Positions 10,750 through 39,600 of a stretch of 64,000 nucleotides of DNA are shown here, one piece after another (within the stretch, counting starts at the first letter, position 1; every line of letters begins with the position of its first letter). This DNA comes from Neisseria sp. (lineage in GTDB: Bacteria; Pseudomonadota; Gammaproteobacteria; Burkholderiales; Neisseriaceae). The translations under genes were made by a program, and so were the position numbers. The notes under the pieces were generated by a model. The model saw only the letters and a program-made list of their open reading frames with translations, was not told the origin of the DNA and did no database searches. The stretch spans positions 1 through 64,000 of the forward strand of contig NZ_JAUMUI010000007.1 of the NCBI RefSeq assembly GCF_030530745.1. The letters run 5' to 3'.

Positions 10750-10931
10750 GGCAAAAAGCGGGCGGGCAAAAGCTATAATTGTACTCCAAAATCGGTTAGG
10801 CCGTCTGAAAACGAGCCGTGAACAAACGCAGCGAAGTTTTCAGCGTTTAAAATAAAACCGTGTTTGTTATCACGGGTTTTACATCACATATCGACTGAGC
10901 CGAACCGGCGGCGAACCGTTTTTCAGACGGC

Positions 10932-10961
10932 CTGACAAACTTTCCGCCGCTGGGCTATAAT
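10932..10961 (+). promoter_or_regulatory. Predicted lptE-holA promoter
   Basis: -35 CTGACA (10932-10937), 18-base spacer, -10 TATAAT (10956-10961), about 40 bases before the lptE start. The -35 abuts a DUS copy. Match to the sigma-70 consensus is 5/6 and 6/6. Confidence 0.7.
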
Positions 10962-11000
10962 CCAAACCCGGTCTGTTTCTCTACCAAATGGAAGAGCTTT

Positions 11001-11480
11001 ATGAAAAAGATTTTGTTAGCCGCCGCCGTGCTGCTGGTGGCCGCCTGCGGTTTCCACTTAAAAGGAATGGGCGGCATGTCCGGCACGCTGCCTTATCAAT
11101 CTTGGCACGTTGCCAACGGCCAATCCATGCAGCAGCCGCTTGAAAATGCCTTGCGCCGCGCCAGCGGCAAACCGGTGGGCGCATCCGAAGCGCAGGCCAC
11201 GGTAACAGTGAATCATATCGGCACCCGCCGCGATGTGTTCACCGTTACCCGCGCCGCCGTCATCAACGAATACCTGCTGGTGTTGCAGGTGGAAGCGCAG
11301 GCCAGTGTGAACGGCCGACCCGTGGGCGAACCGATAGCGGTGCAGGTCGAGCGCAAAATGGATTATGCCGACAGCGAAGTTTTGGGTAAGGCCGAAGAAG
11401 AAAACACCATTTGGTCGGAAATGCGCACCGATGCCGCCGACCAGATTGTGCGCCGCCTCACCTTTTTGAAAGCGCAGTAA
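11001..11480 (+). CDS. lptE: LPS-assembly lipoprotein LptE
   Basis: Outer-membrane lipoprotein that plugs the LptD barrel and helps insert lipooligosaccharide. The 159-residue precursor has a short signal with lipobox VAAC and acylated Cys16, followed by GFHLKG, the conserved start of mature LptE (RlpB). The remaining sequence fits the small alpha/beta LptE fold. Its stop overlaps the holA start (TAATG), an arrangement seen widely in proteobacteria. Confidence 0.92.
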   Translation: MKKILLAAAVLLVAACGFHLKGMGGMSGTLPYQSWHVANGQSMQQPLENALRRASGKPVGASEAQATVTVNHIGTRRDVFTVTRAAVINEYLLVLQVEAQASVNGRPVGEPIAVQVERKMDYADSEVLGKAEEENTIWSEMRTDAADQIVRRLTFLKAQ

Positions 11481-12481
11481 TGCCGGTGATGAATATCGGC
11501 GGGTTGTCGCCCGAACTGCCGCTCAAGCCCCTGTATGTGATACACGGCGAAGAAGATCTGCTGCGTGTGGAAGCTTTGGACGGCCTGCGCGCCGCCGCCA
11601 AAAAACAGGGTTACCTCAACCGCGAGGTTTATACCGCCGACAACGCTTTTGATTGGAACGAACTTCTGCAATCGGCAGGCAGCATGGGGCTGTTTGCCGA
11701 TTTGAAACTTTTGGAAATCCACATTCCCGGTGGCAAGCCCGGCAAAAACGGCGGCGACGCACTGCAAACGCTGGCCGAACGCCTGCCCGAAGACACGGTA
11801 ACCGTGGTGATGCTGCCCAAGCTCGAGCGGGCCCAAACGCAGGCCAAATGGTTTGCCTCACTGGCGGCGCACGGCGTGGTGCTGGAGGCCAAAGCTGTTA
11901 CCGGCGCCGCGCTGCCGCAATGGATACGCGGCCGTCTGAACCGCCTCAACCTCGATATCGAAGCCGACGCGCTGGCGCTGTTTGCCGAGCGCGTAGAAGG
12001 CAACCTGCTGGCTGCCAAGCAGGAAATCGACAAACTCGCCCTGCTGCACCCCGCAGGACATCTGGTCAACATGGCCGATGCCGAAGCCGCCGTTGCCAAC
12101 GTGGCCCGTTTCGACGTGTTCCAGCTCGCCGGCGCATGGATGGGAGGCGACGCCCCCCGCGTGGCGCGCCTGCTCGAGGGTTTGGAAGCGGAAGGCGAAG
12201 AACCCGTGCTGCTGTTGTGGGCGGTGGCCGAAGACGTCCGCACCCTTATCCGCTTAACCGCCGCCCTCAAGCAGGGGCAGAGCGTGCAGGCCGTGCGCAA
12301 CAGCCTGCGCCTGTGGGGGGACAAGCAAACCTTGGCGCCGGCGGCGGTCAAACGCATCAGTATCAACCGCCTGCTTGCCGCCCTGCAAGACTGCGCCCGC
12401 ATCGACCGCATCATCAAAGGAGCAGAAGAGGGCAACGCATGGGCCGAATTCAAACATCTGGTTACGGGATTGGCGGGATAA
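11480..12481 (+). CDS. holA: DNA polymerase III delta subunit
   Basis: Clamp-loader subunit that opens the beta clamp. From ATG 11480 (overlapping the lptE stop) the protein has 333 residues, near the E. coli length of 343. PLYVIHGEEDLL near the N-terminus and the LLLWAVAEDVRTL segment in the C-terminal half are typical. An in-frame extension upstream lies inside lptE and is rejected. A DUS occurs in frame near 11930 (GGCCGTCTGAA encoding GRLN). Confidence 0.92.
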   Translation: MPVMNIGGLSPELPLKPLYVIHGEEDLLRVEALDGLRAAAKKQGYLNREVYTADNAFDWNELLQSAGSMGLFADLKLLEIHIPGGKPGKNGGDALQTLAERLPEDTVTVVMLPKLERAQTQAKWFASLAAHGVVLEAKAVTGAALPQWIRGRLNRLNLDIEADALALFAERVEGNLLAAKQEIDKLALLHPAGHLVNMADAEAAVANVARFDVFQLAGAWMGGDAPRVARLLEGLEAEGEEPVLLLWAVAEDVRTLIRLTAALKQGQSVQAVRNSLRLWGDKQTLAPAAVKRISINRLLAALQDCARIDRIIKGAEEGNAWAEFKHLVTGLAG

Positions 12482-12507
12482 GGCTATAATGCGCCTGTTT
12501 TTCAAAA

Positions 12508-12556
12508 AGGCCGTCTGAAACCTTTCCGCCGCGCGGCAACTGCTTTCAGACGGCCT
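12508..12556. terminator. DUS hairpin after holA
   Basis: AGGCCGTCTGAAA (12508-12520) pairs with TTTCAGACGGCCT (12544-12556). It lies between holA and the next gene; no T-run follows, so termination strength is uncertain. Confidence 0.5.
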
Positions 12557-12590
12557 GTATCGAACCGAGAAGATTGTAAGGAACACCCGC

Positions 12591-13010
12591 ATGGATAACA
12601 AAACCAAACTCCGCTTGGGCGGCTTGGCCGTTTTGGCCACGGCCGTGCTGAGCCTGATATTCGTTTTATTCACCGATTCGTGGCCGGTGGCCATTCTGCT
12701 GGCCGTTGCCGTGATGGCGGGCGTTATCGGCGGCATGATCTGGACAACGCGCCGCCAGCAGCGCCAGTTTCTCGAACGCCTGAAAAAGTTCGACATCGAC
12801 CCCGAAAAAGGCCGCGTCAACGAAGCCAACCTGCGCCGTATGTACCACACCGGCGGACAGGCGCAGAAAGATGCGGTTACCATCATCTGCCTGTCGCAGA
12901 AATGCTCGGTGGAAGAAGCGCACGCCATGATGAAAAACCGCCCGACCCGCCAGCAGATGAACCAGATGGCACAGCAGCAGATGAAAGGCCAGCGCAGGCC
13001 GCACCGCTGA
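12591..13010 (+). CDS. Hypothetical membrane protein with two N-terminal helices
   Basis: A 139-residue protein with two hydrophobic helices at about 9-27 and 32-51, then a basic, helical cytosolic tail rich in Gln and Met near the end (MNQMAQQQMKGQRR). No known domain was recognised. ATG 12591 follows TAAGGAACA, a good ribosome-binding site. Codon use matches neighbours; likely a conserved neisserial protein of unknown role. Confidence 0.7.
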   Translation: MDNKTKLRLGGLAVLATAVLSLIFVLFTDSWPVAILLAVAVMAGVIGGMIWTTRRQQRQFLERLKKFDIDPEKGRVNEANLRRMYHTGGQAQKDAVTIICLSQKCSVEEAHAMMKNRPTRQQMNQMAQQQMKGQRRPHR

Positions 13011-13031
13011 CGGGGCATTACAGATAACGGC

Positions 13032-13063
13032 AGGCCGTCTGAAAGATTTTTCAGACGGCCTTG
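13032..13063. terminator. DUS hairpin terminator
   Basis: AGGCCGTCTGAAA and TTTCAGACGGCCT in inverted order with a 4-base loop, followed by TTGTTT; about 20 bases after the stop of the two-helix membrane protein. Confidence 0.75.
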
Positions 13064-13067
13064 TTTA

Positions 13068-32793: not shown

Positions 32794-33033
32794 ATGAAAA
32801 AAGTATTGATTGCTGCCGCTTTCGCAACCCTGGCTCTGACTGCCTGTTCCAGCAACAAAGACAAAGCCCCCGAAACCGCCAACATCAGCGTTGAACAAGC
32901 TCTGCAAGAGTGCCAGCAAACTGTGGGCAATACTCAAGACCGCGCTGCCTTTGATGCTTGCATGAAAGACAAAGGCTTTGAGCGTCCTGATGCAGCTTCT
33001 GCTCCTGCAGAGCCTGCTGCTCCGGCAAAATAA
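32794..33033 (+). CDS. Small lipoprotein
   Basis: A 79-residue precursor, MKKVLIAAAFATLALTACSS, with lipobox LTAC and acylated Cys18. The mature part has two further cysteines (LQECQQ, FDACMK) that may form a disulfide, and ends in an Ala/Pro-rich tail (ASAPAEPAAPAK). Probably a periplasmic or outer-membrane lipoprotein of unknown role. AAAGGA precedes the start. Confidence 0.78.
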   Translation: MKKVLIAAAFATLALTACSSNKDKAPETANISVEQALQECQQTVGNTQDRAAFDACMKDKGFERPDAASAPAEPAAPAK

Positions 33034-33069
33034 ACCTGTCGGTAAAAAGTACCTTTATTCAGGTTTGAA

Positions 33070-33101
33070 AAACGGCTGCCCGGCAGCCGTTTACTTTTTT
33101 T
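33070..33101 (+). terminator. Terminator of the small lipoprotein gene
   Basis: AAACGGCTGCC (33070-33080) and GGCAGCCGTTT (33082-33092), then ACTTTTTTT. A rho-independent terminator without uptake sequence. Confidence 0.85.
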
Positions 33102-33258
33102 GTTACCGGCATAAAACGGGCAGGAGGCCGCTCAAGCCGCTTGTATTTTTCCGGATATCTGCATCACAGGTTGAACTTTCCCGCAGTATTGTTATCTTAA
33201 TTTCAAGGCACGTTCAGTGCAGGGCTGAAAACGTTTGCATATTCTTACCGAAATAAGA

Positions 33259-33288
33259 TTGGTAAAAAAGCGCATTCAAGGCTACAAT
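33259..33288 (+). promoter_or_regulatory. Predicted hfq promoter
   Basis: TTGGTA (33259-33264), 18-base spacer, TACAAT (33283-33288), 50 bases before the hfq ATG. The upstream 33102-33258 shows no gene. Confidence 0.55.
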
Positions 33289-33338
33289 CAGCAAATGTTT
33301 TCCCGAATATTTCAAAACCATAATAACGGAGTATAAAA

Positions 33339-33629
33339 ATGACCGCGAAAGGACAAATGTTACAAGATCCTTTTTTGAACGCTCTGCGTAAAGAGCATGT
33401 GCCTGTTTCCATTTATCTGGTAAACGGTATCAAGCTTCAGGGGCAGGTTGAATCGTTCGACCAATATGTCGTGCTGTTGAGGAACACCTCAGTAACGCAA
33501 ATGGTTTACAAACACGCCATTTCCACCATTGTTCCGGCACGTGCGGTGAGTTTGCAGCACGAAAACAAACAACCACAACCCCAGGCGGCAGCCCCCGTTC
33601 AAGTGGAAACCCAACAAGCTGCCGAATAA
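33339..33629 (+). CDS. hfq: RNA chaperone Hfq
   Basis: Hexameric Sm-like protein that pairs small RNAs with targets. The 96-residue protein has the Sm1 core [20 protein letters not shown]..., Gly-containing [14 protein letters not shown], and Sm2 [13 protein letters not shown]. The C-terminal 25 residues are Gln/Pro/Ala-rich and disordered. Preceded by ACGGAG and followed directly by its own terminator; miaA and hflX are not adjacent, as is usual in Neisseria. Confidence 0.97.
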
Positions 33630-33634
33630 GGCAT

Positions 33635-33675
33635 AAAAAATACCTTACCGTATCCGACACGGTAAGGTATTTTTT
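33635..33675 (+). terminator. hfq terminator
   Basis: AAAAAATACCTTACCGT (33635-33651) and ACGGTAAGGTATTTTTT (33659-33675), 17-bp perfect stem with a T-run. Confidence 0.92.
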
Positions 33676-33703
33676 ATCACGCTGTTTTTCAGACGGCCAT
33701 GCG

Positions 33704-34264
33704 ATGCTGTTAAACAATATTCTGCCTTTCACTCACGATTTGCTGCGCCACAGCATCCGCCCCGGCGAAAGCGTGCTTGACGGAACTGCTGGAAACGGAC
33801 ACGACACCCTGCTGTTGGCACAGTGCGCGGGATCGGAAGGTAAGGTGTGGGCATTTGACGTGCAACAGAAAGCGCTGGCTAAAACCGCAGCCCGCTTGGC
33901 AGATGCCGGCATACAGGCTCAGGTGGAATATGTGTGTGCGGGGCATGAAACATTGGCGGAATATATCAATGAACCGTTGGCGGCGGCAGTGTTTAATTTC
34001 GGCTGGCTGCCTGGTGGCGACAAAACGTTAACCACCCAAGCCGACACCAGCATATGCGCCTTGAATGCCGCATTGGCGCTGTTGAAACCGGGCGGCCTGC
34101 TGGCAGCGGTACTCTATCCCGGTCATGATGCCGGATATAGGGAGGCGAATGCTGTAGAAGCATGGGCAGCAGATTTGCCGCAACGGCAATATGCCGTGTT
34201 GAAATACGGTTTTATCAACCGCAAAAACTGCCCGCCTTATTTACTGGCTGTTGAGAAATTGTAG
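33704..34264 (+). CDS. mnmM: tRNA (mnm5s2U34) methyltransferase MnmM-like (YtqB family)
   Basis: A 186-residue class I SAM-dependent methyltransferase. SVLDGTAGNGHDTLLLAQ is motif I with the DGTAGNGHDT form specific to the YtqB/MnmM family; NFGWLPGGDKTLTT is its catalytic-site block. The family methylates the wobble base of tRNAs. The symbol is assigned on family motifs only. A DUS lies just upstream of the ATG. Its 3' end is 30 bases from the CRISPR array. Confidence 0.82.
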   Translation: MLLNNILPFTHDLLRHSIRPGESVLDGTAGNGHDTLLLAQCAGSEGKVWAFDVQQKALAKTAARLADAGIQAQVEYVCAGHETLAEYINEPLAAAVFNFGWLPGGDKTLTTQADTSICALNAALALLKPGGLLAAVLYPGHDAGYREANAVEAWAADLPQRQYAVLKYGFINRKNCPPYLLAVEKL

Positions 34265-34294
34265 ATTTAGGGTAGGTAACCGGCAGCAAATGGT

Positions 34295-34396
34295 GTTGTA
34301 GCTCCCTCTCTCATCTCGTAGTGTTACAATGTTTATGGGGTTGCCTGTGCTCCTTTTGAAGTTGTAGCTCCCTCTCTCATCTCGTAGTGTTACAAT
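34295..34396 (+). CRISPR. Two-repeat CRISPR array (type II-C repeat of neisserial kind)
   Basis: Two identical 36-base repeats, 34295-34330 and 34361-34396, flank one 30-base spacer (34331-34360). The repeat begins GTTGTAGCTCCC and ends AGTGTTACAAT. From memory it differs from the N. meningitidis type II-C repeat at about four positions. As in that system, each repeat ends in an extended -10 (TGTTACAAT), so a crRNA could start inside the repeat and run into the spacer. Orientation is plus. No cas9, cas1, cas2 or recognisable tracrRNA anti-repeat is present in the window. Confidence 0.88.
34322..34330 (+). promoter_or_regulatory. Repeat-embedded extended -10 element
   Basis: TGTTACAAT at the 3' end of repeat 1 (and again at 34388-34396) matches the extended -10 form TGN-TATAAT used by the meningococcal system to drive one crRNA per spacer. 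Function here is inferred from that precedent. Confidence 0.55.
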
Positions 34397-34402
34397 TACC
34401 CC

Positions 34403-34442
34403 AGCCTGAAACCCTTGTCTCATCAGGGTTTCAGGCTTTTTT
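34403..34442 (+). terminator. Terminator immediately after the CRISPR array
   Basis: AGCCTGAAACCC (34403-34414) and GGGTTTCAGGCT (34426-34437) followed by TTTTT. It starts 7 bases after the last repeat in the sense of the array, so it should end the crRNA transcript. Confidence 0.88.
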
Positions 34443-34552
34443 GCCGGTAAAATTTCCGGATTAAAACAGCAAAAGCTGGTTGGCATTGACTTTTTTTTCT
34501 CGCGGTTTGATGTCGTCAATCAGTATATGCATCCCCGCAAACTGCTTTTCCG

Positions 34553-34846
34553 TTACTCCAAGCAGCGTATCCGCCCCTCTTGCGGCAGGTTTTTCTGCAG
34601 ACGGGAGTAGTGTTTTTGCAACGCATCGCGCCCGAGCGTGCGGGTGAATTTATTGCCGAAGAGCAGAAGAAAATAGAGTGTGGCAGTCTGGCTTTCGTTA
34701 AAAGTTTTATCGCCCGATTTCACTGTTTCCGCTAAGGCATTCAGACGGCCTGCAGCAATATCGTGGCCGCTGTAATCCAACAACCACGCCTGATTGCGGA
34801 TTTTCTGTTTCACAATCTGCTTGCATTCGCATTTCAAGTGCAACAC
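34553..34846 (-). CDS. Uncertain hypothetical protein downstream of the CbiM-like gene
   Basis: A 97-codon frame beginning with GTG or TTG (no ATG). It reads plausibly from LLDYSGHDIAAGRL to ALQKHYSRLQKN and carries an in-frame DUS. Near its 3' end a second minus-strand frame opens and continues protein-like to 34462 (ending HILIDDIKPREKKVNANQLL...), so a frameshift may have cut a longer gene. No family was recognised. Confidence 0.4.
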   Translation of the reverse strand: MLHLKCECKQIVKQKIRNQAWLLDYSGHDIAAGRLNALAETVKSGDKTFNESQTATLYFLLLFGNKFTRTLGRDALQKHYSRLQKNLPQEGRIRCLE

Positions 34847-34879
34847 TCAAATGCTGTTTGAGAGCCCTTGGAATTGCTG

Positions 34880-35563
34880 TTATTTCCAAATGCTGTTTTC
34901 GGCGCGCAAAAAACGCGTATCGTCGAAAGTGGCCAGCCATTGCGGCCGCAGTGCCACAAAAACCGCCGTAAGGATACCGCTTAAAAAAGCCTCTCCCCAA
35001 GCGAGCAGGAAAAACACCGGAAATGCCGACTGCCAAAGCGTTTCGGCGGCAAACACGCCCGCAAACTGCAACAGTGCCACCACCGACAGCCCCGTCAGCA
35101 GCATACCCGCCGCAGCGGCAAGAAAGCCGTTCAAAAAAATATAGATAAACAGGTTGTCGGGCAGTCCGGACGACAGGCGGCGGAACAAAAAATTAACCGT
35201 CGCGGCGGGCAGCAGCACAAACAGCGCGTTCAGCCCGGCGGCGTATAAATTGTCTGCACCGTGCAAACCGAGATAAGGCACCAGCAGCAAAGTACCCAGC
35301 CACAGTGCCGCAGGCAGGCCGAACATCAGCGTAAGCAGATTGATGCCGAGCAGGTGGTAGCTCATGCCGGCCAGTTGGCCGCCGCCCAAGCCTGCGTTAA
35401 GGCCCCACAGCACGGCCAAATAGGCCGCGGCAGCAACAACCGCCCCGCTGCGGCGGTTCAGCGCAGCAAAAGCCGGTTTGGCCGCCGCCAGCAAAACCGC
35501 CGCCCACAACAGCAGGGCGGTAAAGAGCAGGGAAGGGGGGAACCATTCGGCCAGAAAATACAT
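34880..35563 (-). CDS. Energy-coupling-factor/CbiM-like membrane protein
   Basis: A 227-residue inner-membrane protein with about six or seven helices. MSYHLLGINLLTLMFGLPAALWLG and the conserved His suggest a CbiM/ECF transporter permease-like fold; such proteins capture Ni2+ or Co2+ or act in vitamin uptake. No ATPase or CbiQ gene is adjacent, so it may act alone or with remote partners. ATG 35563 is preferred over TTG 35578. Confidence 0.68.
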   Translation of the reverse strand: MYFLAEWFPPSLLFTALLLWAAVLLAAAKPAFAALNRRSGAVVAAAAYLAVLWGLNAGLGGGQLAGMSYHLLGINLLTLMFGLPAALWLGTLLLVPYLGLHGADNLYAAGLNALFVLLPAATVNFLFRRLSSGLPDNLFIYIFLNGFLAAAAGMLLTGLSVVALLQFAGVFAAETLWQSAFPVFFLLAWGEAFLSGILTAVFVALRPQWLATFDDTRFLRAENSIWK

Positions 35564-35658
35564 TTGTTTACGGAGCAAAGGTGTTCAGACGGCCTGATTT
35601 ATACCCCCGCGCTGCGATATAATCAAGGCCGTCTGAAAAAAGGTTGCAGGACGGTTTT

Positions 35659-36417
35659 ATGGAAACTTTAAACATCACCCCCGTTGCCGCGTTATCCGAC
35701 AACTATATCTGGATTGTTTCTCATAACGGCCGCGCTGTATGCATAGACCCCGGTGAGGCCGCGCCCGTGCTCGATTATCTGCAACGGCAGCGGTTGGAGC
35801 TGGTGCAGATATGGATTACCCACCACCATCACGACCACACCGGCGGCATTGCCGGGCTGAAGCAGGCGTATCCGCAATGCACGGTATACGGCAACCGCGA
35901 CATTGCAGCGGCCGGCCGGCACGTAAACGAAGGCGCACGGCTAACGTTCGACAGCCGCAATATAGAAGTGTGGCACACCCCCGGCCACACCGATACCCAT
36001 CTGGGCTATCTGCTGCACGGCTCCGACGGGCTGCACGTTTTCTGCGGCGACACGCTGTTTTCGGCGGGCTGCGGACGCGTGTTCACCGGCACGCCCCGGC
36101 AGCTTTACGCCTCGCTGCAACGCTACGCCGGCCTACCCGAAAATACTTTGTTTTACCCCGCGCACGAATACACCGCCGCCAACCTGCGCTTTGCCGCCTG
36201 TGTCGAGCCGGATAACTCGGCCGTGCGTGCCGCCCAAGCCGCCGCGGCATGCATGCCCACGCTGCCGGTGAGCCTTGCGCACGAGCGGCAGGTCAACCCG
36301 TTTCTGCGAACGGATTGCGCACAGGTGGCGCGGAAGGCGGAGGAAGAGGCCGGCAGAAAATTGGCAGGAGGCGCCGACGTATTCATTGCTTTGAGAGAAT
36401 GGAAAAACCGTTTCTAA
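35659..36417 (+). CDS. gloB: Hydroxyacylglutathione hydrolase (glyoxalase II)
   Basis: Hydrolyses S-lactoylglutathione, completing methylglyoxal detoxification. The 252-residue protein has the metallo-beta-lactamase motif THHHHDH at 54-60, then HTPGHTDTHLGY, CGDTLFSAGCGRVFTG and PAHEY, supplying the dinuclear metal ligands. The C-terminal glutathione-binding domain includes NPFLR. ATG 35659 (METLNITPVAALSDNYIW) is the family start. Confidence 0.95.
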   Translation: METLNITPVAALSDNYIWIVSHNGRAVCIDPGEAAPVLDYLQRQRLELVQIWITHHHHDHTGGIAGLKQAYPQCTVYGNRDIAAAGRHVNEGARLTFDSRNIEVWHTPGHTDTHLGYLLHGSDGLHVFCGDTLFSAGCGRVFTGTPRQLYASLQRYAGLPENTLFYPAHEYTAANLRFAACVEPDNSAVRAAQAAAACMPTLPVSLAHERQVNPFLRTDCAQVARKAEEEAGRKLAGGADVFIALREWKNRF

Positions 36418-36627
36418 GCCGGCTGATCCGCACGCTGTTTTCAGACGGCCTGATGTTTCGGACTACCCCTCTCAGGCAGATTCAACTCTTTCCCGGCTTT
36501 CCGGCCTGTTATGGTGCCGAATCCCTTTGTTGCCAAAAGCCGCTTGGAGGCGTGAAAATTATTCTTTTTAAGGCCGAAACACGTTAGAATAACGCCTTTG
36601 CCGAAACCAACCTGGCCGTTTTATTTT

Positions 36628-39600
36628 ATGTTGTGGACATTTTTACTGATTGTGCTGCTGTGCGCGATAGCGGGTGTGTTATGGGTGCGCCACCGCCAAG
36701 AGCAGGAATGGCTGCGCGAGCTGACTTACCTGAGCCGCCACGAGGCGGAGGCAGAAGCTGAACCTGCACCCGAAGCGGGCGGCGGCAAGCCGCCCAAAGC
36801 CTTGCGCGGCGTGGATCCCAACCTGCAAAATACCCGTCAGAGCCACCGCGCTGCCGAAGAGGCCAAAGCGGTTTACGACAAAGCTGTTGAAAAATTCCGC
36901 GCACTCTCGCCCAAACACAGCCGCAGGCTTGATGCTACTTCGGGAGGCAGGCGCGAAACACAGCAGGAAGACGATTTCAACGAGTTGCCGATTTTCGCTG
37001 CCGCACCGAAAATCGAAGTTCAGCCCGAACCCGAATTTGCCGAAGCGGGCAGCGGTGCCGGAAACGCCGAAGCACCCATTCGTGCGCTGAAAGCCGAACC
37101 GCTGCCTGAAAATGCGGCCGGGCAGACAGAAGCAGCGCAGGAGCCGTCTGAAAACGGAAACACACCGGCGGAAGAGGGCGGCAGCATTCCCATGTTCGGC
37201 GCCGTGCTGCCTGAAGAGCCTGAAACCGCACAAACCGCCGCGCCCAAAAGCCACGGCATCACCGGCAAAGCCATCGACATCGCGCCTTATGTGTCTTTCG
37301 ATGAAAACGAATACTGCCCGTCGGGCAAGCCCGTTGATGCTTCGCTGCCTGTGATCACGCTGGAAGAAGCAACCCGTTCGCTGCACGAAACCCATCTTGC
37401 CGACCGTTCCCAAAGCGAGGCCGGCCCGCCCGCTCCGAAACCGTTTTCCAACCCCTCTCCCGATATGGAGGTGGTGGAACTCAACTGGCAGTTCAAACCC
37501 GCGCTCGAAGAAACCGCCCCGCCCAAGCCGGTTATCGAACCGAAAGTTATCGGTTTGGATGATCCCGCGCTGGTGCGCACCCGCGAACGGGTGCTTTCGG
37601 AAGTGCGCCAGCTTTCGCATTCCGTGCCGCGCACCGAAATGACGCAGTCTGTGGAGCAGGCATTGGCCAACCCCGAAACCATAGGCGAAGACGATATCCG
37701 CTCCAACCTGCTGCGGCAGCGTTTGGCGCGCCGCCGCCAAGTGTCGGCGCAGGCGCCGGTGCAGGTTTTGCAGCCCAAAGTGATTCCCGAAGGCGAAGTG
37801 TTCGCCAACCTCGCCAAAACCGATTCGCCGGTTAACCGCCAGCGTATCCGCCGCATCAACACCGCGATGCGCGAAAGTGTGATTCCCGATGCAGCCCGGG
37901 TGGGGCAGAGCCATTCGGTGCAGCTGCAGCCGGCTCCCGTTGCCGCCACGCCGCCGATTTCCACCCGCTTTACGCCGTTTGCCGCTGCGGCAGATGCCAC
38001 GGTGGTTGAGCCGCCGCCCGTACCCGAGGTGGAGTGGCCAGTGATTGATATTCCCGTGCCGCCCGTGTTCCGGCATGAACCCTCACCGCAGCAGACTGTC
38101 GTGCCGCATGGTGCCGAATATGCCGGGCAGGCCAGTGCACATATCAGCAGCCGTCCGAGTTGGTCGATTACCGACCGTCTGCTGCAGGAGTCTGCATCTG
38201 AAACGGAGAGGCCGCTTTCTGCCCGACCGGCCGCCGCTATGGTGCCGGATCGTGCCGATGAAACCACGGCTGCGGTGTTTGAACATAAAACGCCCGAACC
38301 GGCCGCCGAACCCCTAAGGCCGTCTGAAACGGTGCCGGCAGATGTGGCGGGCGTTGTGCAAAGTCAGGCAGGCTCAGGCGGACCGCACCTGCCCACTGTG
38401 GCCCTGCTGCAACCGCCGCAGTTCGATCACAGCGCCACCCAAACCGAAGAAGCCCTGCTCGAAAACAGCATCACCATTGAAGAGAAGCTGGCCGAATTTA
38501 AGGTGAAGGTGAAAGTGATGGATGCCTATGCCGGCCCTGTGATTACCCGTTATGAAATCGAACCTGATGTAGGCGTGCGCGGCAATGCGGTGATGAACCT
38601 CGAAAAAGATTTGGCCCGCTCGCTCGGCGTGGCCTCTATCCGCGTGGTGGAAACCATTCCGGGCAAAACCTGCATGGGTTTGGAGCTGCCCAACCCCAAA
38701 CGGCAGATGATACGCCTGAGCGAAATCTTCAATTCGCCGGCGTTTCAGGAATCCAAATCCAAACTCACACTGGCCTTGGGGCAGGACATTACCGGCGGGC
38801 CGGTGGTAACCGATTTGGCCAAAGCGCCGCACCTCCTGGTGGCGGGCACCACGGGTTCGGGCAAATCGGTAGGGGTGAACTCGATGATTCTGTCGATGCT
38901 GTTCAAAGCCACGCCCGACGAAGTGCGCATGATTATGATCGACCCGAAAATGCTGGAACTGTCGATTTACGAAGGCATTCCGCATCTGCTTGCGCCCGTG
39001 GTAACCGATATGAAGTTGGCCGCCAACGCGCTTACTTGGTGCGTGAACGAGATGGAAAAACGCTACCGCTTGATGAGCCATATGGGCGTGCGCAATGTGG
39101 CGGGTTTCAATCAGAAAGTGGCCGAAGCGGCAGCGCGCGGCGAGAAATTGGCCAATCCGTTCACGCTCACGCCCGAAGACCCCGAACCGCTGGAAAAACT
39201 TCCGTTTATCGTGGTGGTGGTGGACGAGTTCGCCGATCTGATGATGACGGCGGGCAAGAAAATCGAAGAGCTGATCGCCCGTTTGGCGCAAAAAGCCCGC
39301 GCCGCCGGCATCCACCTGATTCTTGCCACCCAGCGCCCCAGCGTGGACGTGATTACCGGCCTGATTAAAGCCAATATTCCCACGCGCATTGCATTCCAAG
39401 TGTCGAGCAAGGTCGACAGCCGTACCATTCTCGATCAAATGGGCGCGGAAAACCTGCTCGGGCAGGGCGATATGCTGTTTCTGCCGCCCGGTACGGGCTA
39501 TCCGCGGCGCGTGCACGGCGCGTTTGTGGCCGACGAAGAAGTTCACCATGTGGTTGAATATCTGAAACAATTCGGCGAGCCGAACTATATCGACGACATC

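Follow-up and report, generated by a model that had tools for sequence, protein, structure and literature searches.

A Two-Repeat Neisserial CRISPR Array Beside Fragments of cas2 and cas1: Very Probably the Stump of a Decayed Type II-C Locus

The window analyzed here, a 64,000-nucleotide stretch of a Neisseria sp. genome, contains two 36-nt CRISPR repeats on its forward strand, at 34295..34330 and 34361..34396, with the sole complete spacer, of 30 nt, between them (34331..34360, +). The repeats are identical at 36/36 nt and recur with a period of 66 nt, and both match the Rfam family RF01344 (CRISPR-DR34) with 47.9 bits (E = 5.7e-7; gathering score 35), which agrees with the repeats and spacer described in the original prediction; a chance origin of the array is excluded. 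Across the window's own genome (G000; 2.28 Mb, 53 contigs) a degenerate 36-nt pattern with up to three mismatches matched only these two repeats, while all 11 repeats listed for the array of one relative, G001, are identical to them. Compared with a variant found in several genomes of the genus, which we take to be the meningococcal repeat, the repeat is changed at 4 of its 36 positions (14, 21, 25, and 30); the predicted distance of about four positions from the meningococcal repeat holds on that reading. At the end of repeat 1 stands TGTTACAAT, presumably an extended -10; the motif that had been proposed as a repeat-internal extended -10 is thus present. Family repeats with regular spacers of about 30 nt, the array component of type II-C loci, are found here, although the array has a single spacer and the regularity of the spacing therefore rests on the relatives.

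Between the end of homology to a flanking methyltransferase gene and repeat 1 lies a 29-nt stretch (34266..34294, +), close to the length of one 30-nt spacer. Homology by blastn to the methyltransferase flank of G011 ends at 34265 and does not reach this stretch, which, judging by its length and place, may be what is left of a truncated spacer. Repeat 2 is the last, cas2-proximal repeat. In many relatives the array end away from cas2 is degenerate by eye, either in its outermost repeat or in a half-repeat lying still farther out, as would be expected of the oldest end, so the window array is the cas2-proximal and probably youngest end.

About 7 nt past repeat 2, and so at the distance originally predicted for a strong terminator, begins a GC-rich hairpin with a T-run that resembles an intrinsic terminator (34403..34442, +; 14 pairs in the fold, stem intact). 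It lies between the array and cas2. All 23 related loci that were folded have a hairpin at this place, between the last repeat and cas2; they come from 22 of the 24 other genomes with the repeat (two loci from G021; G029 and G043 left out). The relatives' hairpins have 13–21 pairs, vary in stem sequence, start a few bases from the last repeat, and are imperfect in G003 and G022. Judged from these folds, the predicted terminator belongs to the normal make-up of type II-C loci in the genus and was not gained by the mini-array; the array had been said to have its own terminator, and the hairpin is real but is not private to this array. A simple hairpin and promoter scan did not list the 34403-34442 hairpin, whose loop is probably longer than the maximum of 8 set in the scan. 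No sigma-70-type two-hexamer promoter turned up in 34200-34900, an extended -10 alone being outside the scope of the scan.

Some 20 bases past the T-run begin the remains of two cas genes, both on the reverse strand. The first is a cas2 relic covering codons ~54–110 (34464..34633, -), recognized by tblastn with the G001 Cas2, by alignment, and by blastn (78% over 34438-34634). Its 5′ part is missing, and a one-base deletion splits the remainder into two frames. The second is a cas1 relic covering codons ~105–166 only (34637..34822, -; tblastn 74% identity, blastn 79%). The two are fused by an internal deletion that cost cas1 its 3′ part and cas2 its 5′ half. The fused frame matches the NCBIfam model TIGR03639 (cas1_NMENI) over profile positions 104–170 of 278 with 51.3 bits (E = 9.6e-14), below the cut-off of 120 bits as expected of a fragment; Pfam gave no match for this frame. 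When window positions 33000-36700 were compared with the relatives' loci by blastn, similarity ran past the array to 34634 and again over 34639-34821. The cas pieces thus lie in the same order and on the same strand as in intact loci and are disabled by deletion and frameshift, so that no intact cas1 or cas2 remains at the array. The statement that no cas genes lie nearby stands for intact genes and fails for relics, which directly follow the hairpin; together with the repeat family, they bear out the assignment of the array to the neisserial type II-C kind.

The repeat occurs in 25 of 47 genus genomes, and cas9 matches (TIGR01865) also occur in 25, with 23 of these above the cut-off. Both are present in 24 genomes. 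In the window's own genome the repeat lacks a cas9 partner, and in G038 a cas9 fragment lacks the repeat. The exact repeat of the window occurs in 11 copies in G001, next to cas9, cas1, and cas2 genes that look intact. The order there is tracrRNA (divergent, with anti-repeat), cas9, cas1, cas2, terminator, and array, the array being on the opposite strand and read towards cas2. Decayed type II-C loci, each broken down to a different degree, were found in three other genomes: G016 (L073; cas9 with four stops, one repeat), G025 (L074; cas9 residues 200–404, the end of cas1, cas2, one repeat), and G038 (L075; cas9 residues 256–340 only, no repeat). Two type II-C arrays, each with 22 repeats by a looser script count, are present in G021. 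One of them (L086; C1:170000-189000) is accompanied by full-length cas1 and cas2 matches and no Cas9 match, and the other (L087) adjoins the only cas9 of that genome; the L086 array is a candidate for service in trans.

No TIGR01865 match to cas9 was found in the window's own genome, which is rated 99.76% complete. We also searched this genome with the tracrRNA-cas9-cas1-cas2 DNA of G001, scoring 40 of 310 candidates. Within these 40, the best matches were the two relics (79% and 78%; E = 1.5e-38 and 4.9e-37), and the anti-repeat matched only the two repeats (34296-34334 and 34362-34396). Many further short matches fell in two query stretches that resemble uptake-sequence hairpins (our label), and a few others, of 17–23 nt, were at chance level, with E values of 0.8–9.75. 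The body of the tracrRNA had no match among the same 40 candidates, and no tracrRNA with an anti-repeat was found. A Pfam Cas1 search of the genome missed the cas1 relic, so family searches can overlook fragments, and the case against cas9 fragments depends mostly on the G001-operon search (40 of 310 candidates scored). The genome-wide search for type II cas genes and an anti-repeat, named as a check in the original prediction, thus yielded the cas1 and cas2 relics beside the array, no cas9 match, and no tracrRNA body among the candidates scored.

The only Cas1 that the family search returned from this genome belongs to a type I-C locus (L177; G000 C7:154000-173900) with cas3, cas8c, cas7, cas4, cas1, and cas2; the stretch ends within cas3, and the gene scan covered these six genes. 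The type I-C array has about 35 repeats, unrelated in sequence to the window repeat. Cas8c occurs in 29 of 47 genus genomes.

Outside the locus, the upstream flank is a methyltransferase gene of a putative rRNA methylase family (33704..34264, +; PF06962), matched in 47 of 47 genomes, and the downstream flank encodes a CbiM-like membrane protein (34880..35578, -; PF01891), matched in 46 of 47. The latter is separated from the cas1 relic by an unassigned junction (34834..34873, no strand), on whose side the rest of cas1, cas9, and the tracrRNA of an intact locus would lie; these are gone, and similarity to the CbiM-like region of relatives picks up again at 34874. The two flanks are far apart in complete relatives (methyltransferase vs. 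CbiM-like flank, e.g., G011 1,055 kb/630 kb and G021 1,341 kb/1,220 kb), and when 24 cas-locus stretches were compared with the whole window, neither flank was found in them. A 2.2-kb segment from around the cas locus of G028 (L090:16213-18367) is 79% alike to window positions 10926-13066, about 21 kb from the array; the remaining matches of the cas-locus stretches to the window are short repeats.

A rearrangement or import likely brought the locus to its site. By the methyltransferase, the nearest genomes are G011 (94% identity) and G012 (93%), in both of which the type II-C locus lies apart from that gene, in G012 on another contig. The cas pieces of the window group with G017 and not with G011 or G012 (UFBoot 96, 360 columns; one short locus, with G025 left out of the tree), and this disagreement with the kinship of the methyltransferase would fit horizontal transfer. 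The gene hfq lies at window positions 33339-33629, about 670 bases upstream of the array. This adjacency is probably coincidental, because homology ends before the array in relatives in which the hfq–methyltransferase side aligns.

To compare how well the array and the cas pieces are kept, we aligned the cas1 and cas2 pieces separately and counted unique changes at conserved sites, excluding G025. The window has 9 unique changes at 185 codon positions 1+2 in its cas pieces, 0 at 30 positions in the repeats, 1 at 11 in the hairpin, and 1 at 1 in the linker; the values for G017 are 15 of 200 in the cas pieces and 2 of 32 in the repeats. Fisher tests of the 9/185 cas changes against the repeats gave p = 0.62 with one repeat copy and p = 0.12 with both, and all cas sites (12/222) against both copies gave p = 0.076. 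None of these differences is significant, and the repeats thus show no significantly better conservation than the dead cas pieces. A first MAFFT alignment had suggested heavy cas decay beside unchanged repeats, which was an artefact of cas1 positions 34639 to ~34706 being aligned onto the relatives' cas2. At the three codon positions, distances from the window pieces to G017 (0.14/0.09/0.39) resemble those between genes of relatives (G011 to G017, 0.13/0.12/0.39), and the cas genes therefore probably died recently, which would explain why the repeats are still identical.

No convincing match to the spacer at 34331-34360 was found in phages, plasmids, IMG/VR, the genus genomes, or its own genome, so that the comparison with phages, plasmids, and host suggested earlier gave neither a source nor a second site. 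Matches by blastn had E values of 0.6–8 only, both in phages (Enterococcus, Erwinia, Streptococcus, Roseburia, and Microviridae phages) and in plasmids (Nostoc, Shewanella, and Pantoea), and exact searches with the 24-nt and 20-nt 3′ ends of the spacer gave 0 matches in IMG/VR. With up to three mismatches, the spacer was found in 0 of 46 other genus genomes, and neither the 30-mer nor its 18-nt antisense core has a second site in its own genome. A conserved guide with a genomic target was not found in these searches, whose scope does not extend to weaker pairing. Window positions 34290-34400 had no phage match. A comparison of 34100-34560 with the plasmid collection gave one match, in Pasteurella multocida (NZ_CP020346.1:69992-70094; 77% over 103 nt), which spans repeat-spacer-repeat in a record with no annotated feature there.

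We consider it very probable that this is a decayed type II-C CRISPR-Cas locus, a stump cut back to the cas2-proximal end of its array, and the cas2 and cas1 fragments beside the array bear out the remnant that was among the possibilities first offered for it. Another of those possibilities was a fixed regulatory RNA, in which repeat, spacer, repeat, and terminator would have been retained as a small crRNA-like RNA after the cas genes died. The promoter-like repeat end and the intact hairpin with its T-run make a transcript of ~105 nt plausible, the predicted transcript folds well (z = -5.1, terminator hairpin included), the repeats show no changes at their 30 conserved positions, and there is a precedent in the CRISPR-associated scaRNA that regulates efeUOB in meningococcus (PMC13431127). 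Such an RNA would nevertheless have a guide found in 1 of 47 genus genomes, its own, with no second target at up to three mismatches, and the rates of change in repeats and cas pieces show no significant contrast that would point to excess conservation. We found no positive evidence for retention and regard it as very unlikely. Equally doubtful is the more specific idea that the last repeat-spacer-repeat and terminator make up a self-contained sRNA gene born from a dead array, in which the spacer GCTCCTTTTG and the repeat GCTCCCTCTC, both C/U-rich, might base-pair with ribosome-binding sites.

Less probable still is that the array is an orphan for which a distant type II cas locus of the same genome acts in trans. 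In favour of this, the intact repeats match those of loci that look intact, and the second array of G021, with cas1 and cas2 and no cas9 match, sits apart from the cas9 locus of that genome. Against this, the nearly complete window genome holds no cas9 match and, among 40 of 310 candidates scored, no tracrRNA body, and the Cas1 recovered by family search is of type I-C, with a different repeat; at the sensitivity of these searches, service in trans is contradicted. A dispersed repeat or chance duplication unconnected with CRISPR, which the presence of two copies only might suggest, hardly deserves any weight and is already refuted: the repeats score above the Rfam gathering score, keep a 66-nt period, have cas relics alongside, and recur identically in the 11-repeat array that adjoins cas2 in G001.

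For the decayed locus, we infer a sequence of events from the relics, their order and strand, the parts that are missing, and the lack of a cas9 match. On the outer side, a deletion would have removed the tracrRNA, cas9, and the first ~104 codons of cas1; in the middle, another would have taken the end of cas1 and the start of cas2; and on the array side, all but the cas2-proximal repeat-spacer-repeat would have been lost; what is left of cas2 carries a frameshift as well. Most likely the relic does nothing now. A repeat-internal promoter may still drive a ~105-nt RNA that stops at the hairpin; lacking Cas9 and tracrRNA, such an RNA would serve no CRISPR function. Repeats identical to each other and to those of G001, together with the intact stem, could hint at retention; however, the cas pieces likewise show little decay. 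A further counterpoint is that the genes flanking the stump are not adjacent to each other in those complete genomes that were examined (e.g., G011 and G021).

The stump shares with the cas9-cas1-cas2 loci of Neisseria the repeat family, the 36/30 spacing, the hairpin position, and the order and strand of the cas2 and cas1 pieces; unlike intact loci, it has fragments of cas1 and cas2, one spacer, and no cas9 or tracrRNA that we could find. The decayed loci of G016, G025, and G038 resemble it in their damaged or partial cas genes and few repeats (zero or one there), but they keep pieces of cas9, whereas the window keeps two repeats and no detectable cas9. As a short array without working cas genes, it also resembles isolated CRISPR arrays and CRISPR-like elements (e.g., PMC5294841); unlike those, the window array still has its parent cas genes recognizable beside it. 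Like the type II scaRNA (PMC6199352, PMC13431127), the unit would combine a small CRISPR-related RNA with a terminator, but the scaRNA is encoded outside the array (PMC6199352), while here the unit is the array itself and no cas9 was found.

A search of the literature returned no description that we recognized as this locus. It adds one more type II-C loss in a genus in which 25 of 47 genomes have cas9 matches, some of them broken, and the genome that lost its type II-C locus carries a separate type I-C locus. Before a mini-array that appears to be free of cas genes is labelled an orphan, its flank should be searched for cas relics.
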